Shown here in pieces: positions 13,955-50,910 of a DNA stretch of 55,269 bases (the stretch's first letter is position 1; each line of letters begins with the position of its first letter). The notes under the pieces were generated by a model. It had not been told where the DNA came from and did no database searches. It saw only the letters and a list, made by a program, of their open reading frames with translations. The stretch comes from Oscillospiraceae bacterium (GTDB lineage Bacteria; Bacillota; Clostridia; Oscillospirales; CAG-272). The position numbers were made by a program, and so were the translations under genes. The DNA is taken from contig SVTG01000012.1 of NCBI GenBank assembly GCA_015063895.1, positions 1-55,269 on the forward strand, read 5' to 3'.

Positions 13955-15082
13955 TCAGCACGGCAGGGTGCACGTCAAGGCAACGGCGCCCGTGTGGTCG
14001 GTCAGCTCCACCAACATCTCGCCCTCAGACAGCGTGATGGCAGCGCCGCGGAATGCAATGGGGCGATACGCCTCGTCACGGCGCAGATAAGAGCCGATGA
14101 TCACGGGGATCTGGCCATCCTTATCAAGCTCACCACCCTGGGGGCGCACTCCGTCAGTATGAAGATGCCCTGCGATCAACGCGTGAGGTCTGACATATCG
14201 GGCGAGCAGCTCTGCCCATTCGGTATAGGTATCGTATTCAATATCAAAGGGCGCTTCATGCGTATAGGTAAAGGGATTATGGGCGATCACCAGGCGGTGC
14301 GTGATGCCGGCGGCGGCATATTCCTTTTCGGCGTTTTCGATCACGCGCTTGATAAATTCGGTCTGCGCCAGGCGGAAGGTGTGCCCCACGTTCGTATACC
14401 CGTAAGCATCGTGACCGTCGGGCTTGTCCTCGCCGCAATCAAGCACCATACCCCACACGTTACCCACGCGGAACGTAAAATAAGAGTTGCCGTGATCGGT
14501 GGGAGAATATGCCGTGATCTGCTCGGCAAAATAACCGCGCATATCGTGGTTGCCGCGCGAAAAGACCGTGGCGCGCTGACCGTGAGTGATCGCATCGGCC
14601 AGCTGATAGATCAGCGCAAAATGCTCCACGTTGCCGCTGTGATCGGGAATATCGCCGTTCAGGATCAGCAGATCGAGCGCATCGCCAAAATAAGAGGCGG
14701 CAGCGACGGGCATATCAAGATTACCGTGCGTATCGGCAAGATGATACAGGTGCACGGGCCCGTTTTTAGGCACAGGGCGGAAGGGATAGGTAGCACTGTG
14801 CAGCTCACCCGTTTCGGGGAAATAGGGCTTGCGGTCAAGCATTTGGCGGCAAAAGACCGTATAACCGCCCGCGGCATCGAGCAAAGCCATCGGAACGGTC
14901 ACGCTATGCACACGCCCAAGGGTACGCATCACGCCGTTGGTGTGATCGTAAAAGGTTTGGTCTGCCACCTGCACGTAAAAAAGCGTATCACAGCTGACAA
15001 GTGCCATGATCTGATAATTCTCGCCCACAGCAAACACCGCGGGGGCGGCAACAAGCTCGGGCAAAAGAGCAATTTTTTCCAT
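13955..15082 (-). CDS. Calcineurin-like metallophosphoesterase
   Basis: A 375-residue protein. The C-terminal two-thirds is a metallophosphoesterase with all signature blocks: LADTHGN, NGDIPDHSGN, FSRGNHDMRG, IAHNPFTY and AGHLHTDG, which bind two metals. Residues 1-110 form a separate beta-rich region resembling the N-terminal fibronectin-like domain of purple-acid-phosphatase-like proteins. No signal peptide is evident, so it is probably cytoplasmic. The substrate is unknown. It has its own promoter and is followed by the DUF1508 gene. Confidence 0.85.
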   Translation of the reverse strand: MEKIALLPELVAAPAVFAVGENYQIMALVSCDTLFYVQVADQTFYDHTNGVMRTLGRVHSVTVPMALLDAAGGYTVFCRQMLDRKPYFPETGELHSATYPFRPVPKNGPVHLYHLADTHGNLDMPVAAASYFGDALDLLILNGDIPDHSGNVEHFALIYQLADAITHGQRATVFSRGNHDMRGYFAEQITAYSPTDHGNSYFTFRVGNVWGMVLDCGEDKPDGHDAYGYTNVGHTFRLAQTEFIKRVIENAEKEYAAAGITHRLVIAHNPFTYTHEAPFDIEYDTYTEWAELLARYVRPHALIAGHLHTDGVRPQGGELDKDGQIPVIIGSYLRRDEAYRPIAFRGAAITLSEGEMLVELTDHTGAVALTCTLPC

Positions 15083-15113
15083 ATAGACGCGCTCCTTAAA
15101 TTATGTTATCTAT

Positions 15114-15142
15114 ATTTTAACATTTTAAACCGCTTCTGTCAA
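15114..15142 (-). promoter_or_regulatory. Promoter of the metallophosphoesterase gene
   Basis: On the minus strand TTGACA (15137-15142) and TAAAAT (15114-15119) are separated by 17 bases. Confidence 0.82.
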
Positions 15143-15206
15143 CAAAAACCGCCCCGAAAACAAAGTTTTGCTGCAAGAAAGTCCGCGGGAAAGCCAAAGG
15201 CTGTTA

Positions 15207-15240
15207 CAAAAGCCGCCCGCGGCAATGCCGTGGGCGGCTT
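15207..15240 (-). terminator. Terminator of the DUF11-type gene
   Basis: A GC-rich stem (15210-15222 with 15228-15240, one mismatch) reads on the minus strand as GCCGCCCACGG, loop, CCGCGGGCGGC followed by TTTTG. Confidence 0.75.
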
Positions 15241-15255
15241 CAAACGAAGCTCACG

Positions 15256-15285
15256 CAATACGTCTGATCCCCATCAAACGTATTG
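15256..15285. repeat. Inverted repeat between DUF11-type gene and its terminator
   Basis: CAATACGTCTGAT (15256-15268) pairs with ATCAAACGTATTG (15273-15285), 12 of 13 positions, around a CCCC loop. It is not followed by a T-run, so it is not itself a terminator. It might be an mRNA 3' structure or a protein site. Confidence 0.5.
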
Positions 15286-15307
15286 GAGTTTTCATTGATC
15301 GGCGCGC

Positions 15308-15751
15308 TCAGGCCGTTACGACGCCGTTGAGCGTGAGCACTGCTGTGCCACCTGCGGGCAGCATGATCTGTGCGGTGGGATCAAAAACAAACACGCCCTG
15401 CTCATTCACGGTATAATCTGTGCCCGCAGTAAGCGGAATTTCTACCTCGTCCACCGTTAAAGTGGCGGTAGTAAAAGAAAAGCCCTCGGGCAATGCGTCC
15501 GTGAGGCTATCCAACGTCACGGCGGTGCCGAAGGTATTTACAATCGTAAACTGATAGCTGATGCTATCCCCTACCTCGGCGGTTGCGGGCGCATTTTTCA
15601 CCACAGACAGCAGCACACGGGTAGCCGCGTGTGAAACCTCAAGGCCGTACGTGACGCTGACCTGTGTCGTGGTGGTATTGGAAACAAGGCTTTGCTGTGT
15701 GCCGCTTGCGGGCGTAAAGGACAGCGTACCTTGATTGATCAAAGTTGCTAT
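15308..15751 (-). CDS. DUF11/conserved-repeat-domain protein, unusual start codon
   Basis: A protein of about 147 residues with one DUF11-like beta-sandwich domain (VGDSISYQFTIVNTFGTAVT ... LPAGGTAVLT). Relatives I recall start with MATxxNQATLSY; here the matching position reads IATLINQGTLSF, so the apparent start is an ATA codon at 15751. The ribosome site GGAAAGGAAG lies about 12 bases before it. An in-frame ATG at 15793 lies upstream of that ribosome site and has none of its own; a TTG at 15742 is the other option. Such proteins are usually surface or spore associated, although no signal peptide is seen. The gene sits between the mscL terminator and its own terminator. Confidence 0.6.
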   Translation of the reverse strand: MATLINQGTLSFTPASGTQQSLVSNTTTTQVSVTYGLEVSHAATRVLLSVVKNAPATAEVGDSISYQFTIVNTFGTAVTLDSLTDALPEGFSFTTATLTVDEVEIPLTAGTDYTVNEQGVFVFDPTAQIMLPAGGTAVLTLNGVVTA

Positions 15752-15816
15752 ATTCTGTTCTGTCTTCCTTTCCGCGGATGCTGCGATCCGCATGAACAGA
15801 ATATGAGAAAAGGAAG
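15750..15816 (-). promoter_or_regulatory. Structured leader covering the ribosome site of the DUF11-type gene
   Basis: Three inverted repeats interlock. ATATTCTGTTC (15750-15760) pairs perfectly with GAACAGAATAT (15794-15804). Inside it GCGGAT (15774-15779) pairs with ATCCGC (15786-15791). CTTCCTTT (15764-15771), the complement of the ribosome site, pairs with AAAGGAAG (15809-15816), crossing the first helix. The arrangement allows a pseudoknot or two competing folds controlling access to the ribosome site. Confidence 0.55.
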
Positions 15817-15829
15817 CAAAATGCATCAA

Positions 15830-15862
15830 AAAAGCACTTGCGACAGGGTCGCAAGTGCTTTT
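15830..15862 (-). terminator. Terminator of mscL
   Basis: A perfect 15-bp stem (15830-15844 with 15848-15862) has a 3-base loop. On the minus strand it runs straight into TTTTTT a few bases after the mscL stop. Confidence 0.92.
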
Positions 15863-15866
15863 GATT

Positions 15867-16508
15867 TTACTTCTTGGCAAGCTCCTCTAAAAGCTTGGTC
15901 TGTTTTTCAACGTTTGCAAAAAATGCGGCAAGACGGTCAGCCTCAGCCTTTGCGGCTGCGGCAGCAGCCTCGGCCTTTGCAGCCTCCTCGGCCTTCTTCT
16001 TCTCTTCCTCGGCCTTTGCCTTGGCAGCAGCCTCAGCCAGCTCCTTAGCGTCGAGGCGCTTGCGCACGTTATTGATGATGCGCACGATCACAAACAAGGT
16101 GAATGCAATCAGCAGGAAATTGATAATGGCATTGATAAATGCGCCCCAGTCAATATAGATCGACTGTGCAAGATCGATCGTACCGTCGGCTGCATAAACG
16201 ACCTTAAGATACGTAAAGACCTCACTCAGGCTATCCGTGCCGATGATCAAGGCAAGGATCCAGTTGATGATAGGCTTTAAAATGTTGTTGCTGAGTGCGT
16301 TGATGATCGCCGTAAAGGCACCGCCAACGATAACACCGACGGCCATGTCAAGCACGTTGCCGCGCGTAATGAACTTCTTAAAATCCTTAAAGAAGCCGTC
16401 TTTTTTTGCTTTGAGTTCTTTTTTCATTTTCTTTGTTCTGTCCTTTCTTTCTGCTTGTTCGGCCGCCTCAATGCGTGCCTGCAGATGCTCCATATCCGCC
16501 TTTCCCAT
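15867..16508 (-). CDS. mscL: Large-conductance mechanosensitive channel with long charged tails
   Basis: A 213-residue protein with an MscL core at about 36-150. TM1 is in FITRGNVLDMAVGVIVGGAFTAI (read in two parts) and TM2 is IINFLLIAFTLFVIVRII, with a periplasmic loop between. MscL opens under membrane tension to release solutes during osmotic downshock. E. coli MscL has 136 residues. Here about 35 charged residues precede the core, and an Ala/Lys/Glu coiled-coil-like tail of about 55 residues extends the normal cytoplasmic helix bundle. The ATG at 16508 is set by CAGGAGG; the gene has its own promoter and terminator. Confidence 0.93.
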   Translation of the reverse strand: MGKADMEHLQARIEAAEQAERKDRTKKMKKELKAKKDGFFKDFKKFITRGNVLDMAVGVIVGGAFTAIINALSNNILKPIINWILALIIGTDSLSEVFTYLKVVYAADGTIDLAQSIYIDWGAFINAIINFLLIAFTLFVIVRIINNVRKRLDAKELAEAAAKAKAEEEKKKAEEAAKAEAAAAAAKAEADRLAAFFANVEKQTKLLEELAKK

Positions 16509-16535
16509 ATAAACCTCCTGAAAATTCCTAATAAA

Positions 16536-16564
16536 AATATAACATTCTTTACCGCGCTTGTCAA
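16536..16564 (-). promoter_or_regulatory. Promoter of mscL
   Basis: On the minus strand TTGACA (16559-16564) and TATATT (16536-16541) are 17 bases apart, about 30 bases before the start codon. Confidence 0.82.
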
Positions 16565-16584
16565 GAATTTTTGCGAATTTTAGC

Positions 16585-16617
16585 AAAAAAAGCAAGCCCA
16601 TGGGCTTGCTTTTTTTG
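16585..16617 (-). terminator. Terminator of aroG
   Basis: AAAAAAGCAAGCCCA meets its complement TGGGCTTGCTTTTTT with almost no loop. It lies 3 bases after the aroG stop on the minus strand and also reads as a terminator on the plus strand. Confidence 0.9.
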
Positions 16618-16619
16618 TT

Positions 16620-17648
16620 TCAGAGAAGAGTGGCAAGATCAAATACAAGTGCTTCGGTCTTTTCCCAACCAAGGCAAGGGTCGGTGATCGATTTACCGAA
16701 CACACCCTCACCAATCTTCTGACAGCCGTCCTCAAGATAGCTTTCGATCATAAAGCCCTTCACAAGATGACTGATCTCGCCGTTATGGCGGCAAGCGTGC
16801 AGGACCTCCTTGGCAATGCGGGGCTGCTGATCGTATTTTTTACCCGAATTGGCGTGGTTGCAGTCAACGATCAGCGCGGGGTTTGCCAGACCCGCCTTAG
16901 CATAAAGCTCTGCCAGGTGAGAGAGATCCTCATAGTGATAATTGGGCAGGCTCTGCCCGTGACGGTCAACGTAGCCGCGCAAAATAGCGTGTGCCAACGG
17001 ATTACCGGTGGTGTTGACCTCAAAGGTACGGTACTGAAACACGTGCGGGTGCTGTGCGGCGGTGATGGAATTCATCATCACCGAAAGGTCGCCGCCCGTG
17101 GGGTTTTTCATGCCGACGGGCACGTCCATGCCGCTGGAAACCAGGCGGTGCTCCTGATTTTCAACCGAGCGCGCGCCGACCGCGACGTAGGAAAGCAGAT
17201 CCGACAGATATTGATAATTGGAGGGATACAGCATCTCGTCAGCCGTGGGAAGACCCATATCGGTCAGAATACGCGTGTGAAGCTCACGAATGGCAAGCAG
17301 ACCGCTGTAAAGATCGGGCTTTTTGGTGGGGTCGGGCTGATGCAGCATGCCCTTATAGCCGTCGCCCGTCGTGCGCGGCTTATTGGTATACACACGCATC
17401 ACCAGCAACAGCTTATCGGCAACACGCTCCTGCAAGCGAGCAAGGCGTGCAGCGTATTCGAGCACAGGTGGCTCGCTGTCGACCGAGCAGGGGCCGATGA
17501 TCAAGAGCTTTTTTTCACTCGCGCCGCTAAAGACCTTTGCGATCTCGGCATCGTGTGCCGCCTTGCAGGCGGCCGCGACGGGAGAAATGGGATATTTTTG
17601 CTTGACCTCCTCGGGTGTGGGGAGTGTGTGAACGAACTGCATTGACAC
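16620..17648 (-). CDS. aroG: 3-deoxy-7-phosphoheptulonate synthase, class I
   Basis: A 342-residue class I DAHP synthase (AroF/AroG/AroH type) condensing PEP and erythrose 4-phosphate, the entry step of aromatic biosynthesis. Key blocks are GPCSVDSE at about 52-59, RVYTNKPRTT for phosphate binding, GARSVENQEHR, GMKNPTGGD and the metal-site DCNHANSGK. Length fits the E. coli enzymes. No fused chorismate mutase or ACT domain is present, so any allostery is through the N-terminal extension as in AroG. The GTG at 17648 and an ATG two codons later are both possible. It is divergent from the TetR regulator and shares its operator region. Confidence 0.95.
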   Translation of the reverse strand: MSMQFVHTLPTPEEVKQKYPISPVAAACKAAHDAEIAKVFSGASEKKLLIIGPCSVDSEPPVLEYAARLARLQERVADKLLLVMRVYTNKPRTTGDGYKGMLHQPDPTKKPDLYSGLLAIRELHTRILTDMGLPTADEMLYPSNYQYLSDLLSYVAVGARSVENQEHRLVSSGMDVPVGMKNPTGGDLSVMMNSITAAQHPHVFQYRTFEVNTTGNPLAHAILRGYVDRHGQSLPNYHYEDLSHLAELYAKAGLANPALIVDCNHANSGKKYDQQPRIAKEVLHACRHNGEISHLVKGFMIESYLEDGCQKIGEGVFGKSITDPCLGWEKTEALVFDLATLL

Positions 17649-17707
17649 GTAAAATCACTCTTTTCTTTTTGGGTTTAAAATTAACGCAACAAAATTTGCC
17701 GTAATAC

Positions 17708-17736
17708 TTGACAAACGCCTTGCGGTGTGTTACACT
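17708..17736 (+). promoter_or_regulatory. Promoter of the tetR-aromatic operon
   Basis: TTGACA (17708-17713) and TACACT (17731-17736) are 17 bases apart. The -10 box lies inside the first 15-bp operator repeat. Confidence 0.85.
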
Positions 17737-17771
17737 TGTAATAGTTACACTCGTAACAGTTACGATTGTAC
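17730..17771. promoter_or_regulatory. Triple 15-bp operator array between divergent aroG and tetR promoters
   Basis: Three near-palindromes start at 17730, 17745 and 17760, a strict 15-bp period: TTACACTTGTAA, TTACACTCGTAA and TTACGATTGTAC (core TTAC-N4-GTA). The first overlaps the -10 of the rightward promoter and the third overlaps the -10 of the leftward aroG promoter. Such sites are typical of TetR-family dimers, so occupancy would shut both promoters. Confidence 0.8.
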
Positions 17772-17793
17772 CACCACAAAGAAAAATTGTCAA
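17765..17793 (-). promoter_or_regulatory. Promoter of aroG
   Basis: On the minus strand TTGACA (17788-17793) and TACAAT (17765-17770) are separated by 17 bases. The -10 lies inside the third operator repeat. Confidence 0.85.
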
Positions 17794-17834
17794 TCACTTG
17801 TGTTTTAAGTGTGACAAAACGGAGGTTTTTGTTC

Positions 17835-18392
17835 GTGTCAAAAGGCAGTGAATCCAATCGCTTAGCAAAAGAATGTATCGTCACCGCACTGGTTGAACTG
17901 ATGAAAATACGGGATTACGATTCCATCACCATCACCGACATTTCAAAAAAGGCGGGCGTGTCGCGTATGGCCTACTATCGCAACTACAACTCTAAGGACG
18001 ATATTTTAAACAAGTATATCGAAGAGGTTGGCGAAAACATTCATCAGATGATCGCAAGCGGCAATTCCTCGGCAGTTCCCTACGACTATTTTTACGCGTT
18101 GTTTGAGCAGCTGGGAAAATACAGCGATCTCGCCATCGTCGCTTACCGTGCGCATCTCGGTGAATTGATCCTGGCGGCGCTCATTAAAAATATGTTTATC
18201 ACCTTCCCTCCCCCAGACAACAGCGCCGAGGAGCGTTATCACCGCTTTTTCCTCGCAGGCGCATTTTATAATGTGTTTATCGAATGGCTGAAGGGCGGCT
18301 CACACGAATCCCCCGCCGTGATGGCAAAGATCTGTGCGGAGATGGCCACCAACGGCTGTCCTACACCCTTTGATGAGGTAAGTGCAAAATGA
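17835..18392 (+). CDS. TetR-family regulator, candidate repressor of aromatic biosynthesis
   Basis: A 185-residue TetR/AcrR-type protein. The N-terminal helix-turn-helix is at about 20-60 (SITITDISKKAGVSRMAYYR), and the C-terminal all-helical ligand and dimer domain fills the rest. GTG at 17835 is chosen because GGAGG (17821-17825) lies nine bases upstream; the longer open frame would begin inside the operators. It overlaps tyrA by 4 bases (ATGA), so it is cotranscribed with the shikimate genes it precedes, and it is divergent from aroG. Context points to feedback control by an aromatic end product or pathway intermediate. The ligand is unknown. Confidence 0.85.
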   Translation: MSKGSESNRLAKECIVTALVELMKIRDYDSITITDISKKAGVSRMAYYRNYNSKDDILNKYIEEVGENIHQMIASGNSSAVPYDYFYALFEQLGKYSDLAIVAYRAHLGELILAALIKNMFITFPPPDNSAEERYHRFFLAGAFYNVFIEWLKGGSHESPAVMAKICAEMATNGCPTPFDEVSAK

Positions 18393-19255
18393 CCTCAAGA
18401 TCCCCTATCACGGTAGGAATCGTAGGTCTGGGTCTGATCGGTGGCTCCATGGCACGCAGCTTTGCTGCCGCAGGGCACAGCGTCCTTGCAAGCGACGCCC
18501 TGCCCGCTACGTTATCAAGGGCCATCGCCGACGGCGTGGTGCGTGACGGGCTGACAGAAAAAACCGTGGCGCATTGCGATCTGTTGCTTTTGGCCGTTTA
18601 TCCCCAGGCAGCCATTGAAGCCCTACGGCGATTTGCCCCCTATATATCCCAAAACGCCGTAGTCCTTGACCTCTGCGGAACCAAGCGCGACGTTTGTCGC
18701 GCTTGCTTTGAGATCGCCGCCGAGGCAGGCTTTACCTTTGTGGGCGGTCACCCGATGGCGGGCACGCAATTTTCAGGATACGAAAACAGCCGCGTCGGGC
18801 TTTTTGAGGGTGCACCGATGGTGCTGGTATTGCCCCCCGACGCAGACCCATCTCTACGCGCGCGTGTGGAAACGCTTCTCGCACCGATCGGGTTTGGTTC
18901 CTTTGCCGTTACGAGCGCAGAAGCGCACGACCGTGTGATCGCCTTCACCTCGCAGCTGGCACACGTGGTATCAAACGCCTACGTAAAAAGCCCGATGGCA
19001 CAGATCCACCACGGCTTTTCGGCAGGCTCCTACCGTGACCTCACGCGCGTCGCGTGGCTGAATGAAAAAATGTGGTGCGAGCTCTTTCTTGAAAACCGCG
19101 ATTTTTTATCAGAGGAGATCGGGCATATCATCACAGCGCTCAGTGCCTACAAGACGGCACTTGACAAAAACGACGCCAAAACGTTGGAAGCCCTTTTACG
19201 CGAAGGACGGTTGGCCAAGGAGGCCGCCGACAAAAACGGAGATGATATTTCATGA
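18389..19255 (+). CDS. tyrA: Prephenate dehydrogenase
   Basis: A 288-residue NAD(P)-dependent enzyme converting prephenate to 4-hydroxyphenylpyruvate for tyrosine. The Rossmann motif GLGLIGGS is at about 13-20, followed by DLCGTKRDV and the family block GGHPMAGTQFSGYE. The substrate-site histidine lies in FTSQLAHVVSNAY. It lacks the C-terminal ACT domain seen in Bacillus TyrA, so tyrosine inhibition through ACT is not expected. It overlaps tetR upstream and aroB downstream by 4 bases each. An arogenate dehydrogenase activity cannot be excluded. Confidence 0.93.
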   Translation: MTSRSPITVGIVGLGLIGGSMARSFAAAGHSVLASDALPATLSRAIADGVVRDGLTEKTVAHCDLLLLAVYPQAAIEALRRFAPYISQNAVVLDLCGTKRDVCRACFEIAAEAGFTFVGGHPMAGTQFSGYENSRVGLFEGAPMVLVLPPDADPSLRARVETLLAPIGFGSFAVTSAEAHDRVIAFTSQLAHVVSNAYVKSPMAQIHHGFSAGSYRDLTRVAWLNEKMWCELFLENRDFLSEEIGHIITALSAYKTALDKNDAKTLEALLREGRLAKEAADKNGDDIS

Positions 19256-20310
19256 AAAAAATTCTTGTAAAAGCCTCAAAAAGCTATGAGGTCACCGTCG
19301 GCTGCGGCATACTGAATCTGGCAGGCGCAAAATTAGCGGCGCTCCTGCCGCCACCGCACCACCTGATGCTGGTCAGCGACGACAACGTAGCACCCTTATA
19401 CGCCGCACGGGTAAAGAGCGCGCTCGAAGACGCAGGCTACACCGTTGACACCTTTATTTTTGCAGCGGGCGAAGCCTCCAAAACTACCGATACGCTGGTA
19501 TCGCTGTGGGAGGCGATGGCCGCAGCAGGGCTGACGCGCACCGACTGCGCCGTGGCGCTGGGCGGCGGTGTAGTGGGCGATATCACGGGCTTTGCCGCCG
19601 CCACGTATCTGCGCGGCATTGCTTGCTATCAGATCCCGACCTCGCTGCTTGCCATGGTAGATTCCTCGGTCGGCGGCAAGACCGCCGTGGATCTGCCGCA
19701 GGGCAAAAATCTTTGCGGCGCATTTGCACAGCCCATAGGGGTGCTTTGCGATACCGACGTGCTGAAGACTCTACCCGAGGCCGTGTTCACGGACGGCTGT
19801 GCCGAAGTGATCAAATACGGCTATATCGGCGACAGGCCCCTGCTCTCTTTGCTTGAAAATTCCTTTGCCGACAATCCTGTTTCGATCATTGCACGCTGTG
19901 TTGAGGACAAGCGTGACGTGGTAGAAAGAGACGAGCTTGACAACGGCCCCCGTCAGCTTTTAAATCTCGGGCACACGGGCGGTCACGCCATAGAAAAGCT
20001 TTCCCATTTCAGCATCTCGCACGGCAACGCCGTGGCGATCGGTATGCTGATGGCGGCCAAGGCCGCCGTGGCAATGGGGCTGTGTGACCCGGAGGTGCCG
20101 GCACACCAGGAGGCATTACTCAAGCGCTACGGTCTGCCCACCGTTTGCCCGTTTGAGGCAGGGGCAATAGCCAAGGCAGCGCTTTCGGACAAAAAAAGGC
20201 GCGGCAGCACCATCACACTCGTGATCCCCACCGCCCTGGGAGCAAGCACCCTTTTGCCGCTGGCAACGGATCAGCTTGCTGACTTTTTCCGCCAAGGAGG
20301 CGCACAATGA
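19252..20310 (+). CDS. aroB: 3-dehydroquinate synthase
   Basis: A 352-residue enzyme that cyclises DAHP to 3-dehydroquinate with NAD and a divalent metal. Conserved blocks include ALGGGVVGDITGFAA, YLRGIACYQIPTSLLAMVDSS, GGKTAVDLPQGKN and the metal histidines in NLGHTGGHAIE and ISHGNAVAIGM. Length is the family norm. It overlaps tyrA and aroA by 4 bases each, indicating translational coupling. Confidence 0.97.
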   Translation: MKKILVKASKSYEVTVGCGILNLAGAKLAALLPPPHHLMLVSDDNVAPLYAARVKSALEDAGYTVDTFIFAAGEASKTTDTLVSLWEAMAAAGLTRTDCAVALGGGVVGDITGFAAATYLRGIACYQIPTSLLAMVDSSVGGKTAVDLPQGKNLCGAFAQPIGVLCDTDVLKTLPEAVFTDGCAEVIKYGYIGDRPLLSLLENSFADNPVSIIARCVEDKRDVVERDELDNGPRQLLNLGHTGGHAIEKLSHFSISHGNAVAIGMLMAAKAAVAMGLCDPEVPAHQEALLKRYGLPTVCPFEAGAIAKAALSDKKRRGSTITLVIPTALGASTLLPLATDQLADFFRQGGAQ

Positions 20311-21566
20311 GCACGCTTACCCTGCAAGATCCCACCTATGCGCACGAGGTGGTAGCACCCACCTCTAAATCAGCGGCACACCGCGCACTTTGTGCCGCGG
20401 CCTTTGCCAATGCCCCCACCACGCTGTATATCAATACCGTTTGCGACGATATTGAGGCCACGTGCCGTTGCCTTTGCGCCCTTGGCGCCAAGATCACACA
20501 AAAGGATCGCACGCTGGCGGTGGTGCCCGTAGCGCGGGAAAACATACAAAAAAATGCACTGCTTGACTGCGGCGAATCGGGCTCAACGCTTCGCTTTTTG
20601 CTACCCGTTTGTGCGGCACTTGGCGCCAATGCGCGCTTTATGCGCCATGGCAGACTGCCAAAACGACCGCTTTCCCCTCTTTGGGAGGAGCTGGAGGCGC
20701 ACGGTCTTACGCTCAGCGAGCAAGACGAATTACTGATCACAAGCGGCCGCATCGGTGCCGGTGATTACACCATCGATGCACAGGTCTCCTCACAGTATGT
20801 GACGGGACTTTTACTCGCACTTTCTCTGCTTGACACCCCCTCCACGCTGACTCTGACGGGCGAGATCGAATCGGCGCCCTATATCGATATGACGCTTACA
20901 ACATTGGCACGCTTCGGTGCCGCGCCGAAGATCGGCATTGACGGCCGTACCTATCACATACACGGCTATGCCGCGGCGCCCCTTACTTCACCGGGATCAC
21001 TGACCCCCGAGGGAGATTTTTCGGGTGCGGCCTTTCCGTTAGCGCTGGGGGCCATCGGTCCTCATGCGGTCACGGTACGAGGACTTGACGTTGCCAGTAC
21101 ACAAGGTGATAAGGAGATCCTCAGCTTACTCACACGCTTCGGTGCCAAGGTCACGGTAAAAGACGATGCCGTGACGGTTGCCCCCGCATCTCTCACAGGC
21201 ATTGAGATCAACGCAAAGCAGATCCCCGATCTTGTTCCGATCCTTGCTGTGATCGGTGCCGCGGCAAGCGGCACGACCACCATCACGGGTGCAGCGCGAC
21301 TGCGCCTGAAGGAAAGTGACCGTTTGGCGGCGATGCATGCGTTTTTAAGCACCGTTGGCGGTGATATTACCACGACGGAGGACGCTCTCACGATCAATGG
21401 CGGTAAGCCCTTGACAGGTGGCCGGGTCGAAACCTTCGGCGATCACCGTATCGCTATGAGCGCTGCCGTTGCCGCTGTCCTCACAAACGCCCCCCTGACG
21501 CTTTCCGACACGGCTTGCGTGGCAAAATCCTATCCCGCCTTTTTTGACGAGGTCGTCTTCGCGTAA
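20307..21566 (+). CDS. aroA: 3-phosphoshikimate 1-carboxyvinyltransferase (EPSP synthase)
   Basis: A 419-residue enzyme transferring enolpyruvyl from PEP to shikimate 3-phosphate. It shows PTSKSAAHRALCAAA at the N-terminus, CGESGSTLRFLLP at about 89-101, SSQYVTGLLLA, and RLKESDRLAAM with GDHRIAMS near the C-terminus. The glycine-rich loop reads DCGESGSTLRF, with the GSTLRF pattern rather than the NAGT pattern of plant-type class I enzymes. This resembles divergent Firmicutes AroA. It overlaps aroB by 4 bases and precedes the aroC fusion by 30 bases. Confidence 0.95.
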   Translation: MSTLTLQDPTYAHEVVAPTSKSAAHRALCAAAFANAPTTLYINTVCDDIEATCRCLCALGAKITQKDRTLAVVPVARENIQKNALLDCGESGSTLRFLLPVCAALGANARFMRHGRLPKRPLSPLWEELEAHGLTLSEQDELLITSGRIGAGDYTIDAQVSSQYVTGLLLALSLLDTPSTLTLTGEIESAPYIDMTLTTLARFGAAPKIGIDGRTYHIHGYAAAPLTSPGSLTPEGDFSGAAFPLALGAIGPHAVTVRGLDVASTQGDKEILSLLTRFGAKVTVKDDAVTVAPASLTGIEINAKQIPDLVPILAVIGAAASGTTTITGAARLRLKESDRLAAMHAFLSTVGGDITTTEDALTINGGKPLTGGRVETFGDHRIAMSAAVAAVLTNAPLTLSDTACVAKSYPAFFDEVVFA

Positions 21567-21596
21567 ACACCCACCCCACCGTAACAGGAGTAAACC

Positions 21597-23837
21597 ATGA
21601 AAAACACGTACGGCAAAAACCTTTCTCTTTCGATCTTCGGGGGCTCGCACGATCCCGAGATCGGCATGACCCTTGCAGGCTTTCCCGCAGGGCTTCAAAT
21701 CGACACGTCGCATCTGCTGACGCTGATGGCGCGCCGTGCGCCCGGCAGTACACCGCTCGGTACACCGCGCCGCGAGGCCGATCTGCCCATTTTCACCGAG
21801 GGTATAGACGAAAACGGCGTCACCACCGGCGGCACCATTCGCGCCATAATAAAAAATCAAAACACCCGTTCGAGCGATTACAGCTTCATTTACGACACGC
21901 CCCGCCCGGGGCACGCTGATTTTGCGGCATTGCAGAAATACGGCCCCGAAGTGGATCTGCGCGGCGGCGGCCGTTTTTCGGGGCGACTCACTGCACCCTT
22001 GACCATCGCAGGCGGACTTGCCCTGCAATATTTAGCCACACGCGGCATTCGCGTAGGCGCGCACATTGCGCAGATCGGACAGATCAAAGATACCCCGTTT
22101 GACAGCGTAGCGGGCGACAGCGCTCTCTTTGACACGATCGCCGCACGCCACCTCCCTGTCATTGACGAGGAAAAGGGCAAAGCCATGTCCGACGCTGTGC
22201 TTGCTGCCAAGCGCGCAGGAGATTCGTTGGGCGGTATTGTAGAATGTATGGTAACGGGTCTTGAAATCGGCCTTGGTGAGCACATGTTTGACGGCGTCGA
22301 AGGGCGCATTGCATCTATCATGTACGCCATACCCGCAGTAAAGGGCGTAGCTTTTGGCGCAGGCTTTGGCGTGGCAGAAATGACGGGAAGCCAGAACAAC
22401 GACGCCTTTGTGACCGACGGCAAGACCGTTAAAACGCGCACCAATCACGCGGGCGGTATTCTCGGCGGCATGACAAACGGTATGCCACTTGTTTTTACCG
22501 TTGCCGTAAAGCCCACCCCCTCCATTGCAAAGGAGCAACAGACAGTATCGCTCTCCCGTATGGAAAACACGACCCTGTCGGTTGGTGGCAGACACGATCC
22601 CTGCATTCTGCCACGTGTCATACCCGTAGTGGAGGCCGCCGCCGCGCTGGCCGTGCTTGATCTCCTGCTTGATGAGCAGCCCACTGCAAAGGGGGCAACG
22701 CCCGACCTTGCCACCTCACGCCGCAGAATTGATAAGATAGACCGCGAGTTAGTAGCACTTTTCTCAGCACGTATGGGGGTCAGTGCCGACGTTGCGGCCT
22801 ATAAACGCGAGATCGGCATGCCCGTAACAGACGCCGCACGCGAAGCTGCGCTCCTTGACCGCGTAGCCGCTCTTTCCCCTAAAGAAACTGCCGATTACAC
22901 GCGCACGCTTTATACCAATATCATGTCACTTTCCCGTGCCTATCAGCACACAGTCCTGGGCTGCGACACCCCTTTGACAAAAACGGTCAAAAACGCCATC
23001 ACAGCAACCAAAGCCCCCTTGCCCGACAACGCAACGGTTGCCTGCCAAGGTGTGGCGGGCTCCTATGCCTCGCACGCGGCAAAAAAGATATTTGCTGCAC
23101 CCGATATTGCGTATTACGGGCAATTTGCCGACGTATTTGAGGCGATCGAACGGGGCGAATGCCGTTACGGCGTGTTGCCGATCGAAAACAGCACCGCAGG
23201 ATCGGTAACCGAGATATACGATCTCCTTGCCAAGCACCGCTTTTTTGTGGTGCGGGCCCTTTGCCTTGATGTGGATCACGCTTTACTGGCCAAACGGGGC
23301 GAGAAAATCGAGAATTTAACCGAAGTTGTTTCTCATCCCCAGGCGTTGGCACAATGCGCTGATTTTATCGCAGGTCTTGGCAACGTGAAGATCACACCCA
23401 AGGCAAACACGGCCTTAGCGGCACAGTATGCGGCCGGCACAAACGGAGCAGCCGCCATCGCCAGCCCCGATTGCGCCGCGCTTTACGGGCTTGATACGCT
23501 GGCGCTGCACGTCAGCGACCAAAAAAACAACCGCACACGCTTCATCTGTATCACAAAAAGCTTAGAGATCTATGAAGGTGCCGACAAGACCAGTGTGATA
23601 CTCACGCTCCCCCACAAGGCGGGCGCACTGTCGCGCGTTCTGGTACGCTTTGACGCGCTGGGCATCAACCTGACAAAGCTTGAATCTCGCCCCATTCGCG
23701 AGCGCAATTTTGAGTTCCGCTTTTACTTTGACCTCGCCTGCCCTGCAACAGATACACGCCTGCTGCCGCTTCTTTCGGAATTGGCAGGAGAATGCGAGGA
23801 GTTTCAATATCTTGGCACCTATGCCGAGATAGAATAG
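21597..23837 (+). CDS. Fusion: chorismate synthase - chorismate mutase - prephenate dehydratase - ACT
   Basis: A 746-residue fusion. Residues 1-358 are chorismate synthase, with catalytic histidines H18 (GGSHDP) and H106 (RPGHAD) and the FMN-site block RGGGRFSGRLTAP. Residues about 370-455 are an AroQ-type chorismate mutase (RRRIDKIDRELVALFSARM). Residues 479-655 are prephenate dehydratase with PIENSTAGSV and NNRTRF at 644-649. Residues 664-743 are an ACT domain with ESRP at 696-699, which in P-proteins binds phenylalanine. One chain can thus run EPSP to chorismate to prephenate to phenylpyruvate. CM-PDT-ACT fusions are standard P-proteins; fusion to AroC upstream is unusual. No frameshift interrupts the frame. 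GGAG sits before the ATG. Confidence 0.95.
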   Translation: MKNTYGKNLSLSIFGGSHDPEIGMTLAGFPAGLQIDTSHLLTLMARRAPGSTPLGTPRREADLPIFTEGIDENGVTTGGTIRAIIKNQNTRSSDYSFIYDTPRPGHADFAALQKYGPEVDLRGGGRFSGRLTAPLTIAGGLALQYLATRGIRVGAHIAQIGQIKDTPFDSVAGDSALFDTIAARHLPVIDEEKGKAMSDAVLAAKRAGDSLGGIVECMVTGLEIGLGEHMFDGVEGRIASIMYAIPAVKGVAFGAGFGVAEMTGSQNNDAFVTDGKTVKTRTNHAGGILGGMTNGMPLVFTVAVKPTPSIAKEQQTVSLSRMENTTLSVGGRHDPCILPRVIPVVEAAAALAVLDLLLDEQPTAKGATPDLATSRRRIDKIDRELVALFSARMGVSADVAAYKREIGMPVTDAAREAALLDRVAALSPKETADYTRTLYTNIMSLSRAYQHTVLGCDTPLTKTVKNAITATKAPLPDNATVACQGVAGSYASHAAKKIFAAPDIAYYGQFADVFEAIERGECRYGVLPIENSTAGSVTEIYDLLAKHRFFVVRALCLDVDHALLAKRGEKIENLTEVVSHPQALAQCADFIAGLGNVKITPKANTALAAQYAAGTNGAAAIASPDCAALYGLDTLALHVSDQKNNRTRFICITKSLEIYEGADKTSVILTLPHKAGALSRVLVRFDALGINLTKLESRPIRERNFEFRFYFDLACPATDTRLLPLLSELAGECEEFQYLGTYAEIE

Positions 23838-23845
23838 GAGTCGCT

Positions 23846-25075
23846 ATGCCGAAAAAATTGCAAATAGGCCTTTTGGGAGAGCATTTGGGGCACAGCTATT
23901 CCCCCGAGATCCATGCAGCACTTGCCGATTACGACTATCGCCTGATTGAATTACAGCACAGCGAATTGGCCGACTTTATAAGGGCGGGTGACTTTGACGG
24001 CCTTAACGTCACCATCCCCTATAAAGAAGCGGTCATTCCCCTTTTAGACACACTCTCCCCCGTTGCCGCCAGGATCGGTGCGGTAAACACGATCGTGCGT
24101 GAAAGAAACGGCAAGCTCTGCGGTCACAATACCGACTACGAGGGACTTGCCGCTCTCATACGTGCAAACGGCATATCCCCAAAGGGAAAGAAGGTATTGA
24201 TACTGGGCTCGGGCGGTGCCTCCAAGGCTGCCGTGTGCGTGATCGAGGATATGGGCGGCACACCCGTGACCGTTTCACGCAAGGGCGAAAATAACTATGA
24301 AAATCTTTCGCGACACGGCGACGCTGCCATTCTTATCAACGCAACGCCCGTCGGCATGTATCCGCAAAATGGACAAGCCCCCCTTTCACTTTCCGCATTT
24401 CCCACTCTCGAGGCGGTGATCGACCTTATTTACAATCCCCTGCGCACCGCCCTGCTGATGGAAGCGGAGCGGCTTGGTATCACCGCCGCGAACGGCCTTT
24501 ATATGCTGGTAGCACAAGCGGCTGCCGCCTGTGCGCTTTTCACGGGCCAAGCACCCGAAAAAGCCCTGGTCGGTAAGATCACGCAAAAAATGACGGTGCG
24601 CACCGAAAACATTATTCTGATCGGTATGCCCGGGTGCGGTAAGACTACCCTTGGGCGACGCATCGCCGCTGACCTCTCCCGCCGCTTTGTCGATGCCGAC
24701 GAGATGCTTGAAAGCGAATGTGGCATAAAAATACCCGATATCTTCAAGCAAGAGGGTGAAGCAGGCTTCCGCGCACGCGAAAGCGAGATCCTAAAAAAGC
24801 TGGGACGGGAGCGCGGCCTTGTCATTGCCACGGGCGGTGGAGCCGTGACGGTTGCCGAAAATTATCAGCATCTGCACCAAAACGGGAAAATACTGTTTTT
24901 GGATACCCCACCGACAGGCCTGCCGACCGAGGGCAGACCCCTTTCTACCGCTCACACTCCGGAGGAGCTATATAAAAAACGCTTGCCGCTTTACCGCGCA
25001 TTTGCCGACATAACCGTTGCGATCACCCGCAACGTTGAAGAAAATCTGATCCGCATGAAGGAGGCGCTTTTATGA
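23846..25075 (+). CDS. Fusion: shikimate dehydrogenase - shikimate kinase
   Basis: A 409-residue fusion. Residues 1-248 are AroE, with catalytic K60 in NVTIPYKEA, D97 in HNTDYEGL and the NADP loop GSGGASKA. Residues 254-409 are AroK, with the P-loop GMPGCGKTT at 260-268, VDADEMLE, TGGGAV and the lid EGRPL. The chain would convert 3-dehydroshikimate to shikimate 3-phosphate. The ATG at 23846 is set by AGGAGTCGCT just upstream; a longer frame would overlap the preceding fusion gene. It lies 8 bases after that gene and overlaps aroQ by 4 bases. Confidence 0.95.
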   Translation: MPKKLQIGLLGEHLGHSYSPEIHAALADYDYRLIELQHSELADFIRAGDFDGLNVTIPYKEAVIPLLDTLSPVAARIGAVNTIVRERNGKLCGHNTDYEGLAALIRANGISPKGKKVLILGSGGASKAAVCVIEDMGGTPVTVSRKGENNYENLSRHGDAAILINATPVGMYPQNGQAPLSLSAFPTLEAVIDLIYNPLRTALLMEAERLGITAANGLYMLVAQAAAACALFTGQAPEKALVGKITQKMTVRTENIILIGMPGCGKTTLGRRIAADLSRRFVDADEMLESECGIKIPDIFKQEGEAGFRARESEILKKLGRERGLVIATGGGAVTVAENYQHLHQNGKILFLDTPPTGLPTEGRPLSTAHTPEELYKKRLPLYRAFADITVAITRNVEENLIRMKEALL

Positions 25076-25500
25076 ATTTACTGATCATCAACGGCCCCAA
25101 TCTCAACATGCTCGGTATTCGCGAGCCTGAGATCTACGGCCGACAGGATTACAGCACGCTTTGTACATTTATCAAAGCCGCCGCAGAAGAGGTGGGAGCT
25201 ACGTGCGAAATATTTCAATCCAACCACGAGGGCGCGATCGTAGACAAAATTCAAGGGGCCCTTGGACGCTTTGACGGCATCGTCATAAACCCTGCCGCCT
25301 ACACCCACACCAGTGTAGCGATTGCCGACGCGCTTTCCGCCATAGCGTTGCCCACGGTCGAGGTGCATTTGTCAGACATCACACAGCGCGAGACCTTTCG
25401 TCAGCACTCCTTTGTAGCACCCATTGCCAAAAAGACCTTCATGGGAAAGGGCTTTGAAGGATATCGCCTTGCCATACGCTTTTTAGCGGATAACAGCTAG
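25072..25500 (+). CDS. aroQ: 3-dehydroquinate dehydratase, type II
   Basis: A 142-residue dodecameric-type dehydroquinase. The catalytic tyrosine lies in the flexible loop EPEIYGRQ, with upstream INGPNLNMLG, FQSNHEGAIVD, NPAAYTHTSVAI and EVHLSDITQRE. It completes the shikimate set in this operon and is unrelated in fold to the type I-like protein at 1618. The stop codon TAG coincides with the left edge of a TA-flanked inverted-repeat element, so the C-terminus (LADNS) may have been set by that insertion. Confidence 0.97.
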   Translation: MNLLIINGPNLNMLGIREPEIYGRQDYSTLCTFIKAAAEEVGATCEIFQSNHEGAIVDKIQGALGRFDGIVINPAAYTHTSVAIADALSAIALPTVEVHLSDITQRETFRQHSFVAPIAKKTFMGKGFEGYRLAIRFLADNS

Positions 25501-25773
25501 GCAAGCGTGAATAATCCGAACTCGGTTTCAAGAGGCAAATATCCGCATCTGCATCAGAGAATTTCCTTATAATATCCGCATATTATCGCAAAAATTCTCT
25601 TTGCATCTGCGAAGATTTGCTCTCTTGAAACTCGGGGGACCCTCAAGCTTTGATTTTTTGAGTGATTTTTTTACTTGGCGCTCGCCGCCAAGTGTGGACT
25701 TTGCAAGAGTGACAAGTACAAAAAGCGCCAAAAAGCAAGGCTTGAGGGCGGGTTCGGATTATTCACTCTTGCC
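25500..25773. mobile_element. MITE-like element with 22-bp terminal inverted repeats and TA flanks
   Basis: The ends are inverted repeats: left GGCAAGCGTGAATAATCCGA (extending AAC), right its complement, with one mismatch over about 22 bases. TA lies immediately outside both ends (25498-25499 and 25774-25775), as expected for a TA target duplication of IS630/mariner-type elements. Inside are further palindromes: GTTTCAAGAG near 25524 pairs with a copy ending near 25634, AGAGAATTT with AAATTCTCT, CCCTCAAGC with GCTTGAGGG, and ACTTGGCG with CGCCAAGT. No transposase gene is present. A structured RNA is the alternative. Confidence 0.65.
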
Positions 25774-25794
25774 TAACGTAATGAAAACGAAAAG

Positions 25795-25838
25795 CCACGG
25801 CGCACCCCTTACCCATGGGGACGCCGTGGTTTTTTGTT
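25795..25838 (+). terminator. Terminator of the aromatic operon, downstream of the element
   Basis: CCACGGCGCACCCC (25795-25808) pairs with GGGGACGCCGTGG (25817-25829), followed by TTTTTTG. It lies beyond the MITE-like element, so operon transcripts would pass through that element. Confidence 0.85.
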
Positions 25839-25982
25839 TCGCTTATTGTTGACATTTTTCACTTTTTCCAATTATTTTATTATATTTTCCAATTTTACAA
25901 AAATAATTTTCTATTTTTATAATTCGCTATTTTTTGATTTTTACAAATATTTACCGCCATTTTTCGCCATGACGCCAAAAGC
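25839..25982. other. AT-rich spacer
   Basis: No gene is visible. TTGACA occurs at about 25850, but no well-spaced -10 follows. The stretch is strikingly AT-rich compared with its surroundings. Confidence 0.4.
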
Positions 25983-26012
25983 CAAGGTGCGCTTAACAAG
26001 AAGCGCACCTTG
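25983..26012. terminator. Terminator-like hairpin downstream of the minus-strand string
   Basis: CAAGGTGCGCTT pairs perfectly with AAGCGCACCTTG (12 bp, 6-base loop), with TTTT on the plus side and CTTTTGG on the minus side. It probably ends the minus-strand genes finishing at 26040. Confidence 0.72.
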
Positions 26013-26039
26013 TTTTCTGCTTATTTTCTGTGCTTTTCG

Positions 26040-26252
26040 TCACGCCTGAAAGATCTTCACGCCCCAAATGCTTTCGGTACGCTCTACCTTTACAATACGC
26101 TGACCCGTTTTGTCGGTATAATAGATCTTGATCCACTCATCGTCAATATCAAGCACCTCACACACAATATCAGGACTGCCCGTGAGGTATTCCTCCTCTT
26201 CATTTTTAATGGAGCAGCAGCACCCCTTTAAGCTTTTGAGCATATCAGACAT
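26040..26252 (-). CDS. Small acidic protein of unknown function
   Basis: A 70-residue protein starting MSDMLKSLKGCCC, then an acidic patch (NEEEEYLTG) and a beta-rich region ending ESIWGVKIFQA. The pattern VCEVLDIDDEWIKIYYTDK resembles a small SH3-like barrel, but I do not recognise a named family. The cluster of three cysteines at 11-13 is distinctive. The ATG at 26252 directly follows a T-run of a long hairpin whose 3' arm contains the ribosome site. It is the last gene of the yabP-yabQ string. Confidence 0.65.
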   Translation of the reverse strand: MSDMLKSLKGCCCSIKNEEEEYLTGSPDIVCEVLDIDDEWIKIYYTDKTGQRIVKVERTESIWGVKIFQA

Positions 26253-26254
26253 AA

Positions 26255-26329
26255 AAAATCCCCTTTCCCTGTAAGAAAATAGCGCACAAACGTGCATCAC
26301 TTCCATTTTCTACACAAAAAGGGGATTTT
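26255..26329 (-). promoter_or_regulatory. Long hairpin with terminator-like end covering the next gene's ribosome site
   Basis: On the minus strand AAAATCCCCTTT (26318-26329) pairs perfectly with AAAGGGGATTTT (26255-26266). Between them GTAGAAAAT/ATTTTCTTAC and GCAC-GTTT-GTGC extend the stem. The 3' arm includes the purine-rich ribosome site and runs into a T-tract ending at the ATG of the small acidic protein gene. Confidence 0.6.
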
Positions 26330-26344
26330 ATACACTTGAACGTA

Positions 26345-26539
26345 TTAAAGTTGTGTAAAGACGGTCTCGATAGCGGCTTGCTCACCCGAGAGGTCCTTTG
26401 CCTTGCGGTCATTTTGATTGACCTCGGCAATGCGCATCACCGTAATGATCACCGCCACCACAAAAATAACAATAACAAGAATACGTATCAGCACTGTTAA
26501 CGGTGAGGGGGCACCCCCTCTTTGTTTATTGTTTGCCAT
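26345..26539 (-). CDS. Small single-pass membrane protein at the divIC position
   Basis: A 64-residue protein: a short polar N-terminus, one membrane helix (about 14-34, LTVLIRILVIVIFVVAVIIT) and a short polar, helix-prone C-terminus. In Bacillus divIC follows yabQ, and the topology fits a septum initiator of the DivIC/FtsL type, but it is only about half the usual length and lacks the C-terminal domain. It overlaps the 3' end of yabQ by 43 bases. It may be a reduced DivIC or an unrelated small protein; sequence alone does not decide. Confidence 0.55.
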   Translation of the reverse strand: MANNKQRGGAPSPLTVLIRILVIVIFVVAVIITVMRIAEVNQNDRKAKDLSGEQAAIETVFTQL

Positions 26540-27180
26540 AATTTAAAATTCCGTTTTCTTTTATAAGTAGATTGTTTGACAAAAAGACTTCCGTGTGTTG
26601 CGGCCGCCAGCTGAGCAGCACACAGCAGGCGTGAGCGGTGTAAAAGCCGTGAGCGTTGCCATTTCGTTGCAAGCGCCAACAAGGGGCGAGCGACAAAGCG
26701 ACGCAAAGCACGACACAAAATGCCGAGCGGCAACCACAAGATCACGCGCAAATAAACGCCACAGGCTGCCAACAAAAAAGCCAACAGGTCAAGCGCGTGC
26801 GCAATGCGCCCCGAAAAAAGCCGACGCCAAAGAAAAAAGCCCAAAAGGAGCAACAGCGGCACAGGCAAGCGAAAGGCACCGTTATGGTAGCCAAAGCATA
26901 GGATCAGCACGGCAAACGCCCCAAAAACGGGAAACAGCAGCTGCCAGAACGAAAGTGAAAGCGACTGCCACGCACGGTGCAAGGAGCAAACAGAAAAACC
27001 GACAGCACGCCCTATCAGAGGCAAGGGACGCTGATACAGCGCTGCCAAACGGGCAGCTTTGGGACAGGCCCCTGTCAGCACACGCAGCACAAACACGATA
27101 TCCCACAGCACCCCCAAAGCTATGCCACACAAAAAAGCAAGCACAAACAGCTTACCTTGTAAAGCGGGGTAGATCAGCAT
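26497..27180 (-). CDS. yabQ: Sporulation protein YabQ
   Basis: A 227-residue protein with several membrane helices. The N-terminal pattern GIALGVLWDIVFVLR and the later GYHNGAFR match YabQ, needed for spore cortex formation in Bacillus and located in the forespore outer membrane. It lies 11 bases after yabP and precedes the divIC-position gene, as in B. subtilis. The C-terminal 60 residues are basic and divergent. Confidence 0.85.
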   Translation of the reverse strand: MLIYPALQGKLFVLAFLCGIALGVLWDIVFVLRVLTGACPKAARLAALYQRPLPLIGRAVGFSVCSLHRAWQSLSLSFWQLLFPVFGAFAVLILCFGYHNGAFRLPVPLLLLLGFFLWRRLFSGRIAHALDLLAFLLAACGVYLRVILWLPLGILCRALRRFVARPLLALATKWQRSRLLHRSRLLCAAQLAAATHGSLFVKQSTYKRKRNFKLWQTINKEGVPPHR

Positions 27181-50865: not shown

Positions 50866-50910
50866 ACAGTGATAATCACACACAAAATGTACGATTGTAA
50901 GGAGTTAGCA

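Follow-up and report, generated by a model that had tools for sequence, protein, structure and literature searches.

In a 55,269-nt stretch of DNA from an Oscillospiraceae bacterium (hereafter the window), three short dyads are arranged in tandem between aroG, encoding a DAHP synthase, and a divergently oriented gene for a TetR-family protein, and the outer two lie on the -10 boxes of two opposed predicted promoters. The dyads are conserved together with the TetR protein and the genes behind it, and the locus is a genuine regulatory locus that spans the genus. As judged from sequence, the TetR protein is quite probably a local autorepressor of the shikimate-phenylalanine-tyrosine pathway that would act on both promoters via the dyads.

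Organization of the aromatic locus

The tetR gene (17835..18392, plus strand) starts with GTG, a start supported by alignment, and encodes a protein of 185 amino acids with TetR_N and TetR_C_8 domains (Pfam). It is followed on the same strand by tyrA for prephenate dehydrogenase (18389..19255), aroB for 3-dehydroquinate synthase (19252..20310), aroA for EPSP synthase (20307..21566), a gene for a fused protein of 746 amino acids comprising chorismate synthase, chorismate mutase, prephenate dehydratase and ACT parts (21597..23837), a fused aroE-aroK gene for shikimate dehydrogenase and shikimate kinase (23792..25075), the true start of which is probably located inside the open reading frame, and aroQ for a type II dehydroquinase (25072..25500). 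The aroG gene (16620..17648, minus strand) lies on the other side. By gene order and Pfam assignments, tetR runs in the same direction as the remaining shikimate, phenylalanine and tyrosine genes, with which the initial annotation had it cotranscribed. Adjacent reading frames overlap or are separated by 30 bases, with some uncertainty as to the start of aroE-aroK, and co-transcription of the entire series from tetR to aroQ is therefore likely. In the genome, which is 93.2% complete, aroG is the only DAHP synthase gene detected (sole match to PF00793), and aroB and tyrA have one match each. The fusion of chorismate synthase with chorismate mutase, prephenate dehydratase and ACT recurs in two of twelve loci of the genus that were checked (L062 and L063), while the other ten contain a separate aroC reading frame.

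Three dyads on two opposed predicted promoters

The dyads, which as such belong to neither strand, each span 12 bp and start at positions 17730, 17745 and 17760, that is with an exact period of 15 bp. Dyad 1 (TTACACTTGTAA, 17730..17741) covers the -10 box of tetR, dyad 2 (TTACACTCGTAA, 17745..17756) lies between both -10 boxes and represents the conserved core, and dyad 3 (TTACGATTGTAC, 17760..17771), which has one mismatch (GTAC), covers the -10 box of aroG. The predicted promoter of the tetR operon (17708..17736, plus strand) consists of TTGACA (17708-17713), a 17-nt spacer and TACACT (17731-17736) and agrees with the consensus in 10 of 12 positions. On the minus strand, the predicted aroG promoter (17765..17793) combines TTGACA (17793-17788) with a spacer of the same length and TACAAT (17770-17765), reaching 11 of 12 positions. 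A promoter scan of 17600-17900 returned exactly these two opposed sites, compared to a mean of 0.5 in 50 shuffles. The spacing of the three repeats and the position of the outer copies on the -10 boxes of two opposed promoters with TTGACA and 17-nt spacers had been proposed beforehand and are borne out here. The repeats had further been termed 15-bp operators; this holds for their period, but the units themselves are dyads of 12-14 bp, the third of which is imperfect. A palindromic operator at the regulator's own gene, frequently within a divergent promoter region, is a trait of the TetR family, and by sequence the dyads show this trait here.

Several smaller features surround the array. A conserved half-site, GTGACA or GTTACA, is present just 5' of the tetR Shine-Dalgarno sequence (17810-17834 in the window) at most loci of the genus, with the exception of L041, and also at the more distant loci L052-L055; in L052, L053 and L055 the Shine-Dalgarno sequence is flanked by TTACA and TGTAA. 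Folding of six leaders lent no support to an RNA hairpin around this site (z-scores of +1.56 to -2.25). In five relatives (L033-L037) the aroG leader contains a palindrome, TGTGACAAATTTTGTCACA, between aroG and the tetR -35 box, and this palindrome is degenerate in the window.

Conservation across the genus

The window was compared with 18 relative loci (L032-L049), which stem from the guts of sheep, goat, roe deer and water deer or whose source is given only as Oscillospiraceae. An ortholog of the TetR protein is encoded in 19 of 21 genomes of the genus, i.e. in the window's own genome (G000) and in 18 of the 20 others. The search gave no match in G011 and only a weak one in G006 (4.9e-5), and these absences are soft because both genomes are incomplete (82% and 70%, respectively). 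The next recognized gene after tetR is tyrA in 16 of the 18 relative loci and aroB in the remaining two (L034 and L041).

Throughout the 19 loci the motif accompanies the regulator gene. A perfect TTACNNNNGTAA is located upstream of tetR in 16 loci and a copy with one mismatch in the other three (L047-L049); likewise, dyad 2 is perfect in 16 loci and deviates by one mismatch in three. No locus was found that had kept tetR and lost the motif, since in all 19 a dyad is retained that is perfect or deviates at a single position; this outcome favors the initial annotation. TTGACA on the plus strand is present at the matching place in 19/19 loci and its counterpart on the minus strand in 16, the exceptions being L040, L041 and L049. 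The alignments reveal islands of conservation at dyad 2 and at promoter elements, namely the TTGACA boxes and the -10 box of tetR. Dyad 1 is perfect in eight of the 19 loci (the window, L032-L037 and L041), and the full triple, if each dyad is allowed up to one mismatch, occurs in nine. The triple operator announced by the initial annotation is thus present in the window but lineage-specific within the genus, where dyad 2 forms the core.

Loci with divergent degV and fakA

In eight sister loci (L042-L049) the genes divergent from tetR are degV and fakA, as identified by their Pfam families, and not aroG. The latter follows behind degV-fakA in the same direction in seven of them, and the contig of the eighth, L045, ends before that point. 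Dyad 2 is conserved in these loci and a dyad 3 is not formed; dyad 1 is present with one mismatch in L044 and L047, at a distance of 16 and 15 bp, respectively. Because of these eight loci, a role of the TetR protein restricted to aromatic synthesis is likely but not proven. They bear the possibility, to which we assign a limited chance of being correct, that the protein is at heart a regulator of degV-fakA responding to fatty acids or membrane state, with the aro genes sharing its promoter region and being, in the window's clade, what is left under a lipid-responsive switch. Evidence against such a function comes from the window's own clade, which lacks a close fakA homolog (the best matches are 36-38% identical) and yet has retained the TetR protein and the dyads, the array being even fuller there. 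Moreover, G011 has kept mscL-fakA-degV without the TetR gene and without a perfect dyad at that place.

G011 and G006 possess a different aro operon, with another gene order, 34-61% identity by gene and no match to the TetR protein. Its sole perfect dyad resides inside the coding part of tyrA in G011; the contig of G006 begins inside aroB, such that the start of the operon lies beyond it. In a FastTree tree of tyrA-aroB-aroA, the window's group and L041 are separated from both the DegV-type loci and the outgroups (support 0.867). It provides no order of age for the two arrangements with divergent aroG or degV. The position of mscL beside fakA in G011 speaks for degV-fakA having been lost in the clade of the window.

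The TetR protein and its relatives

The N-terminal helix-turn-helix domain of the TetR protein is recognized (PF00440, 30.9 bits, cut-off 24), and the C-terminal TetR_C_8 domain passes narrowly (PF14278, 27.2 bits, cut-off 26.1). An AlphaFold model contains nine predicted helices (mean pLDDT 85.3, pTM 0.74), in agreement with the all-helical ligand-binding domain typical of the family. Its fold matches include acyl-CoA-binding FadR proteins, which would be in line with a lipid-responsive regulator, but the TM-scores are low (about 0.42-0.66 among the 50 matches listed) and the matched proteins comprise many unrelated members of the TetR family. On these grounds the fold does not allow the ligand to be named; it may be lipid-like. 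The closest solved structures by sequence are the DhaS/DHSK_reg-type proteins 4mk6 (E 1.1e-16) and 2iu5, which are also among the fold matches. Proteins of this type are named dihydroxyacetone kinase regulators, whereas the protein studied here stays far below the cut-off of the NCBIfam model DHAK_reg (24.4 vs 129 bits).

The recognition helix SRM[AT]YYRNY is present in 25 of 25 aligned TetR proteins. Outside the genus, 83 sequence-distinct TetR genes were considered, with 365 bases examined for each. A perfect dyad was found for 6 of 13 genes encoding an SRM[AT][YF] helix, compared to 2 of 70 genes whose helix differed (Fisher P 1e-4), the grouping being partly post hoc; when the loci that had suggested it (L050, L052-L056) were left aside, the numbers were 2/7 and 2/70 (P 0.04). 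Two control palindromes did not occur at any of the 83 genes. Seven of the 13 relatives with the same helix lack a perfect dyad. Near-dyads with one mismatch are present twice at a distance of 15 bp in L030 and once in L022. Four relatives with an SRMA helix face an ABC transporter gene (L052 according to Pfam; L053, L055 and L056 by eye), and three of them have two dyads at 15-bp spacing, L055 having single dyads. The closest relatives beyond the genus (L050 and L021/L051, 52-54% identity) have neither a perfect dyad nor the aro operon.

The surroundings of some relatives would also suit a regulator tied to lipids: the gene beside tetR encodes DegV in L054 and L075, an MGDG-synthase-like protein in L164 and an FtsH-like protein in L206, and the lone copy of the 14-mer GTTACANTYGTAAC that is found off-locus in the genus precedes a gene for an AMP-binding protein in G013 (L087). 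The neighbors are, however, single cases that were noticed rather than counted.

Proposed control of aroG

It appears improbable that the TetR protein controls only itself and its downstream operon and leaves aroG aside. One argument for this restricted role comes from L041, in which tetR follows a second pheA-tyrA pair of the same orientation and aroG is no longer divergent; here dyads 1 and 2 alone are kept, both perfect. The DegV-type loci, which do not have a complete array over the divergent -10 box, point in the same direction. On the other hand, dyad 3 of the window is situated on the -10 box of aroG, and L041, which has no divergent TTGACA, has also lost dyad 3 (three mismatches). The evidence does not follow a neat rule, as the exact divergent TTGACA is also absent from L040 and L049, and in L040 dyad 3 is nevertheless preserved but for one mismatch. 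In G009 (L061, 5762-8784), a second pheA-tyrA pair is located between aroG and tetR and resembles by eye the pairs of G011 and G006.

Specificity of the array

Dyad 1 contains TACANNTGTA, so that operators of another repressor with a site of this kind (BlaI, MecI or CopY) were considered. According to one study, 12-mers similar to TACANNTGTA are CopR sites in Lactococcus (PMC7253601), and in the open-access literature the dyad motif was encountered in work on CopY, the other matches being apparently unrelated. This assignment is very improbable, since the 93.2%-complete genome encodes no protein matching PF03965 (Penicillinase_R), and by eye the TACANNTGTA core is interrupted in the conserved dyad 2, while dyad 1 does not match the refined consensus in its flanks. 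A CopR/CopY operator was rejected specifically, because the dyads depart by eye from the consensus RNYKACANNTGTMRNY (PMC7253601) and a PF03965 match is missing from the genome.

Single near-dyads are common: with at most one mismatch, 158 matches per strand were counted in the genome, compared to 208 for a reversed control, and the motif as such is not enriched. The case therefore rests on the array and its conservation. Dinucleotide shuffling of 17649-17834 (20,000 replicates) yielded one or more perfect dyads 315 times, two perfect dyads once, and a triple at 15-bp spacing with at most one mismatch in total not at all; a looser score accepting any tandem palindrome was not reached in 5,000 shuffles. 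Despite the abundance of single near-dyads, these shuffles and the islands of conservation across species make it extremely improbable that the repeats are due to chance in a promoter region rich in A+T.

The array is also rare beyond the window. A search of 394 genomes of the order, which included three members of the genus, found the tandem pattern at the aroG-tetR locus of G000 and G003 and not in G016; off-locus, one stray place with one mismatch was found in each of two other genomes, and the reversed control matched in one genome. The 14-mer GTTACANTYGTAAC has 14 matches in the 21 genomes of the genus, 13 of which are at this locus (reversed control: 4), and it occurs at a single place in the window's own genome. 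Eight further perfect TTACRNNYGTAA places exist in that genome, and the tandem arrangement is absent from the four examined (L057-L059 and window position 15538); the one in L059 is located just 5' of the longest reading of an open reading frame. At 50889-50900, GTACGATTGTAA is, similar to dyad 3, a dyad with one mismatch and directly precedes the Shine-Dalgarno sequence and start of a gene, which by eye resembles a type II topoisomerase subunit. TTACATTCGTAG or TTACATTCGTAA recurs at C1:36658, 36782 and 38000 and at C16:35619 of the same genome; these copies apparently belong to a dispersed repeat that is unrelated to promoters and whose coding phases are CGACCATCGG-like, with short peptide phrases that recur.

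T-boxes, tryptophan genes and the wider family

Control by a mechanism other than a T-box had been anticipated, and indeed no T-box was found between 14000 and 27000 (E up to 0.1) or, at gathering score, in the whole window. The lone Rfam match in 14000-27000 was rejected as an implausible SurA (23 bits vs 100). Elsewhere in the genome there are seven T-box matches, four of them above cut-off, and the genes behind them resemble by eye tyrS, aspS, trpB, a transporter gene, cysE/cysS, pheS and thrS. The inclusion of trp genes in the system, which had also been considered, did not hold: the genome lacks a match to Anth_synt_I_N and thus a detectable component I of anthranilate synthase, and the trpB-like gene is preceded by a T-box (C21:19210, L079). 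With the 14-mer occurring once in the genome, a wide regulon including trp genes was rejected. A trpB-like gene behind a T-box in a genome without anthranilate synthase component I suggests indole salvage or tryptophan auxotrophy.

In the family, 103 of 118 genomes (three of the 118 from this genus) have a tyrA match. About 1.5 kb was fetched for each of the 27 best tyrA loci outside the genus, and the leader may lie beyond these segments. None of the 27 contains a match to the TetR protein (tblastn, E 1e-4), which suggests that the protein became part of the operon within this genus. The reading frame before tyrA has a start like that of a type I-beta DAHP synthase in 19 of the 27 loci (by eye) and is a relative of aroG in two. 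No T-box was detected in these segments at E up to 0.01, the sole match being a chance-like mir-724, and a T-box does not seem to be the family's evident alternative for control of the operon.

Proposed mechanism

In the autorepression that we favor, TetR would bind the dyads in the aroG-tetR intergenic region, probably with one dimer per dyad. The dimer on dyad 2 would sit between the -10 boxes and, in the window's clade, those on dyads 1 and 3 directly on them, such that both boxes would be covered and both promoters shut. This would repress tetR itself, the tyrA-to-aroQ operon and the divergent aroG. Since 15 bases correspond to about 1.4 helical turns, neighboring dimers would face different sides of the DNA, an arrangement known for some other TetR proteins. 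A small molecule in the C-terminal pocket would alter the grip on DNA, candidates being a metabolite related to the pathway or a lipid-like compound kept from an older function.

The latter alternative leads to a speculative history, which we regard as rather doubtful. The TetR protein would originate from a lineage residing beside fatty-acid-kinase and membrane genes and would have been recruited to the whole shikimate-phenylalanine-tyrosine pathway; after loss of degV-fakA in one clade the operator would have grown from one dyad to three, clamping both promoters, and aromatic synthesis would perhaps be coupled to acyl-chain supply. Cross-pathway control of this kind was not found in the open-access literature.

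Relation to known systems and biological meaning

TetR proteins acting on divergent promoters are of a known kind; what sets the present system apart is its proposed target, its tandem operator and its link to degV-fakA. QacR and CprB exemplify the binding of more than one TetR dimer to neighboring or overlapping sites. The array described here, known from sequence alone, differs from both in that separate dyads of 12-14 bp are repeated every 15 bp and straddle two opposed -10 boxes. McbR from Corynebacterium glutamicum is a TetR-type protein that responds to an effector. It is described as a repressor of genes for amino-acid and sulfur metabolism (PMC2580772), and the proposed regulator would resemble it as a TetR-type repressor of amino-acid metabolism genes. 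McbR is a global sulfur regulator with many targets, unlike the present system with one 14-mer place in the genome and a proposed aromatic target.

Genes for aromatic amino acid synthesis are controlled by T-box, TRAP, TrpR and TyrR, and to our knowledge neither these nor Tar/TK0271 is a TetR repressor. With all of them the proposed system would share transcriptional control of aromatic amino acid synthesis, which for Tar/TK0271 is described in a study on Thermococcus kodakarensis (PMC6737238). A TetR regulator of this pathway was not recognized in the open-access literature, which is no proof of absence.

If the proposed autorepression is true, the sole detected route to chorismate, phenylalanine and tyrosine would be under one DNA operator and one repressor in these Clostridia, with T-box matches still present at tyrS-, pheS- and trpB-like genes. 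Given its ligand, the TetR protein could serve as a biosensor. The genus, which consists of uncultured gut bacteria, offers a natural series with one, two or three dyads, or with none where the TetR gene is missing, and this series allows the growth of an operator and the recruitment of a regulator to be tested directly.
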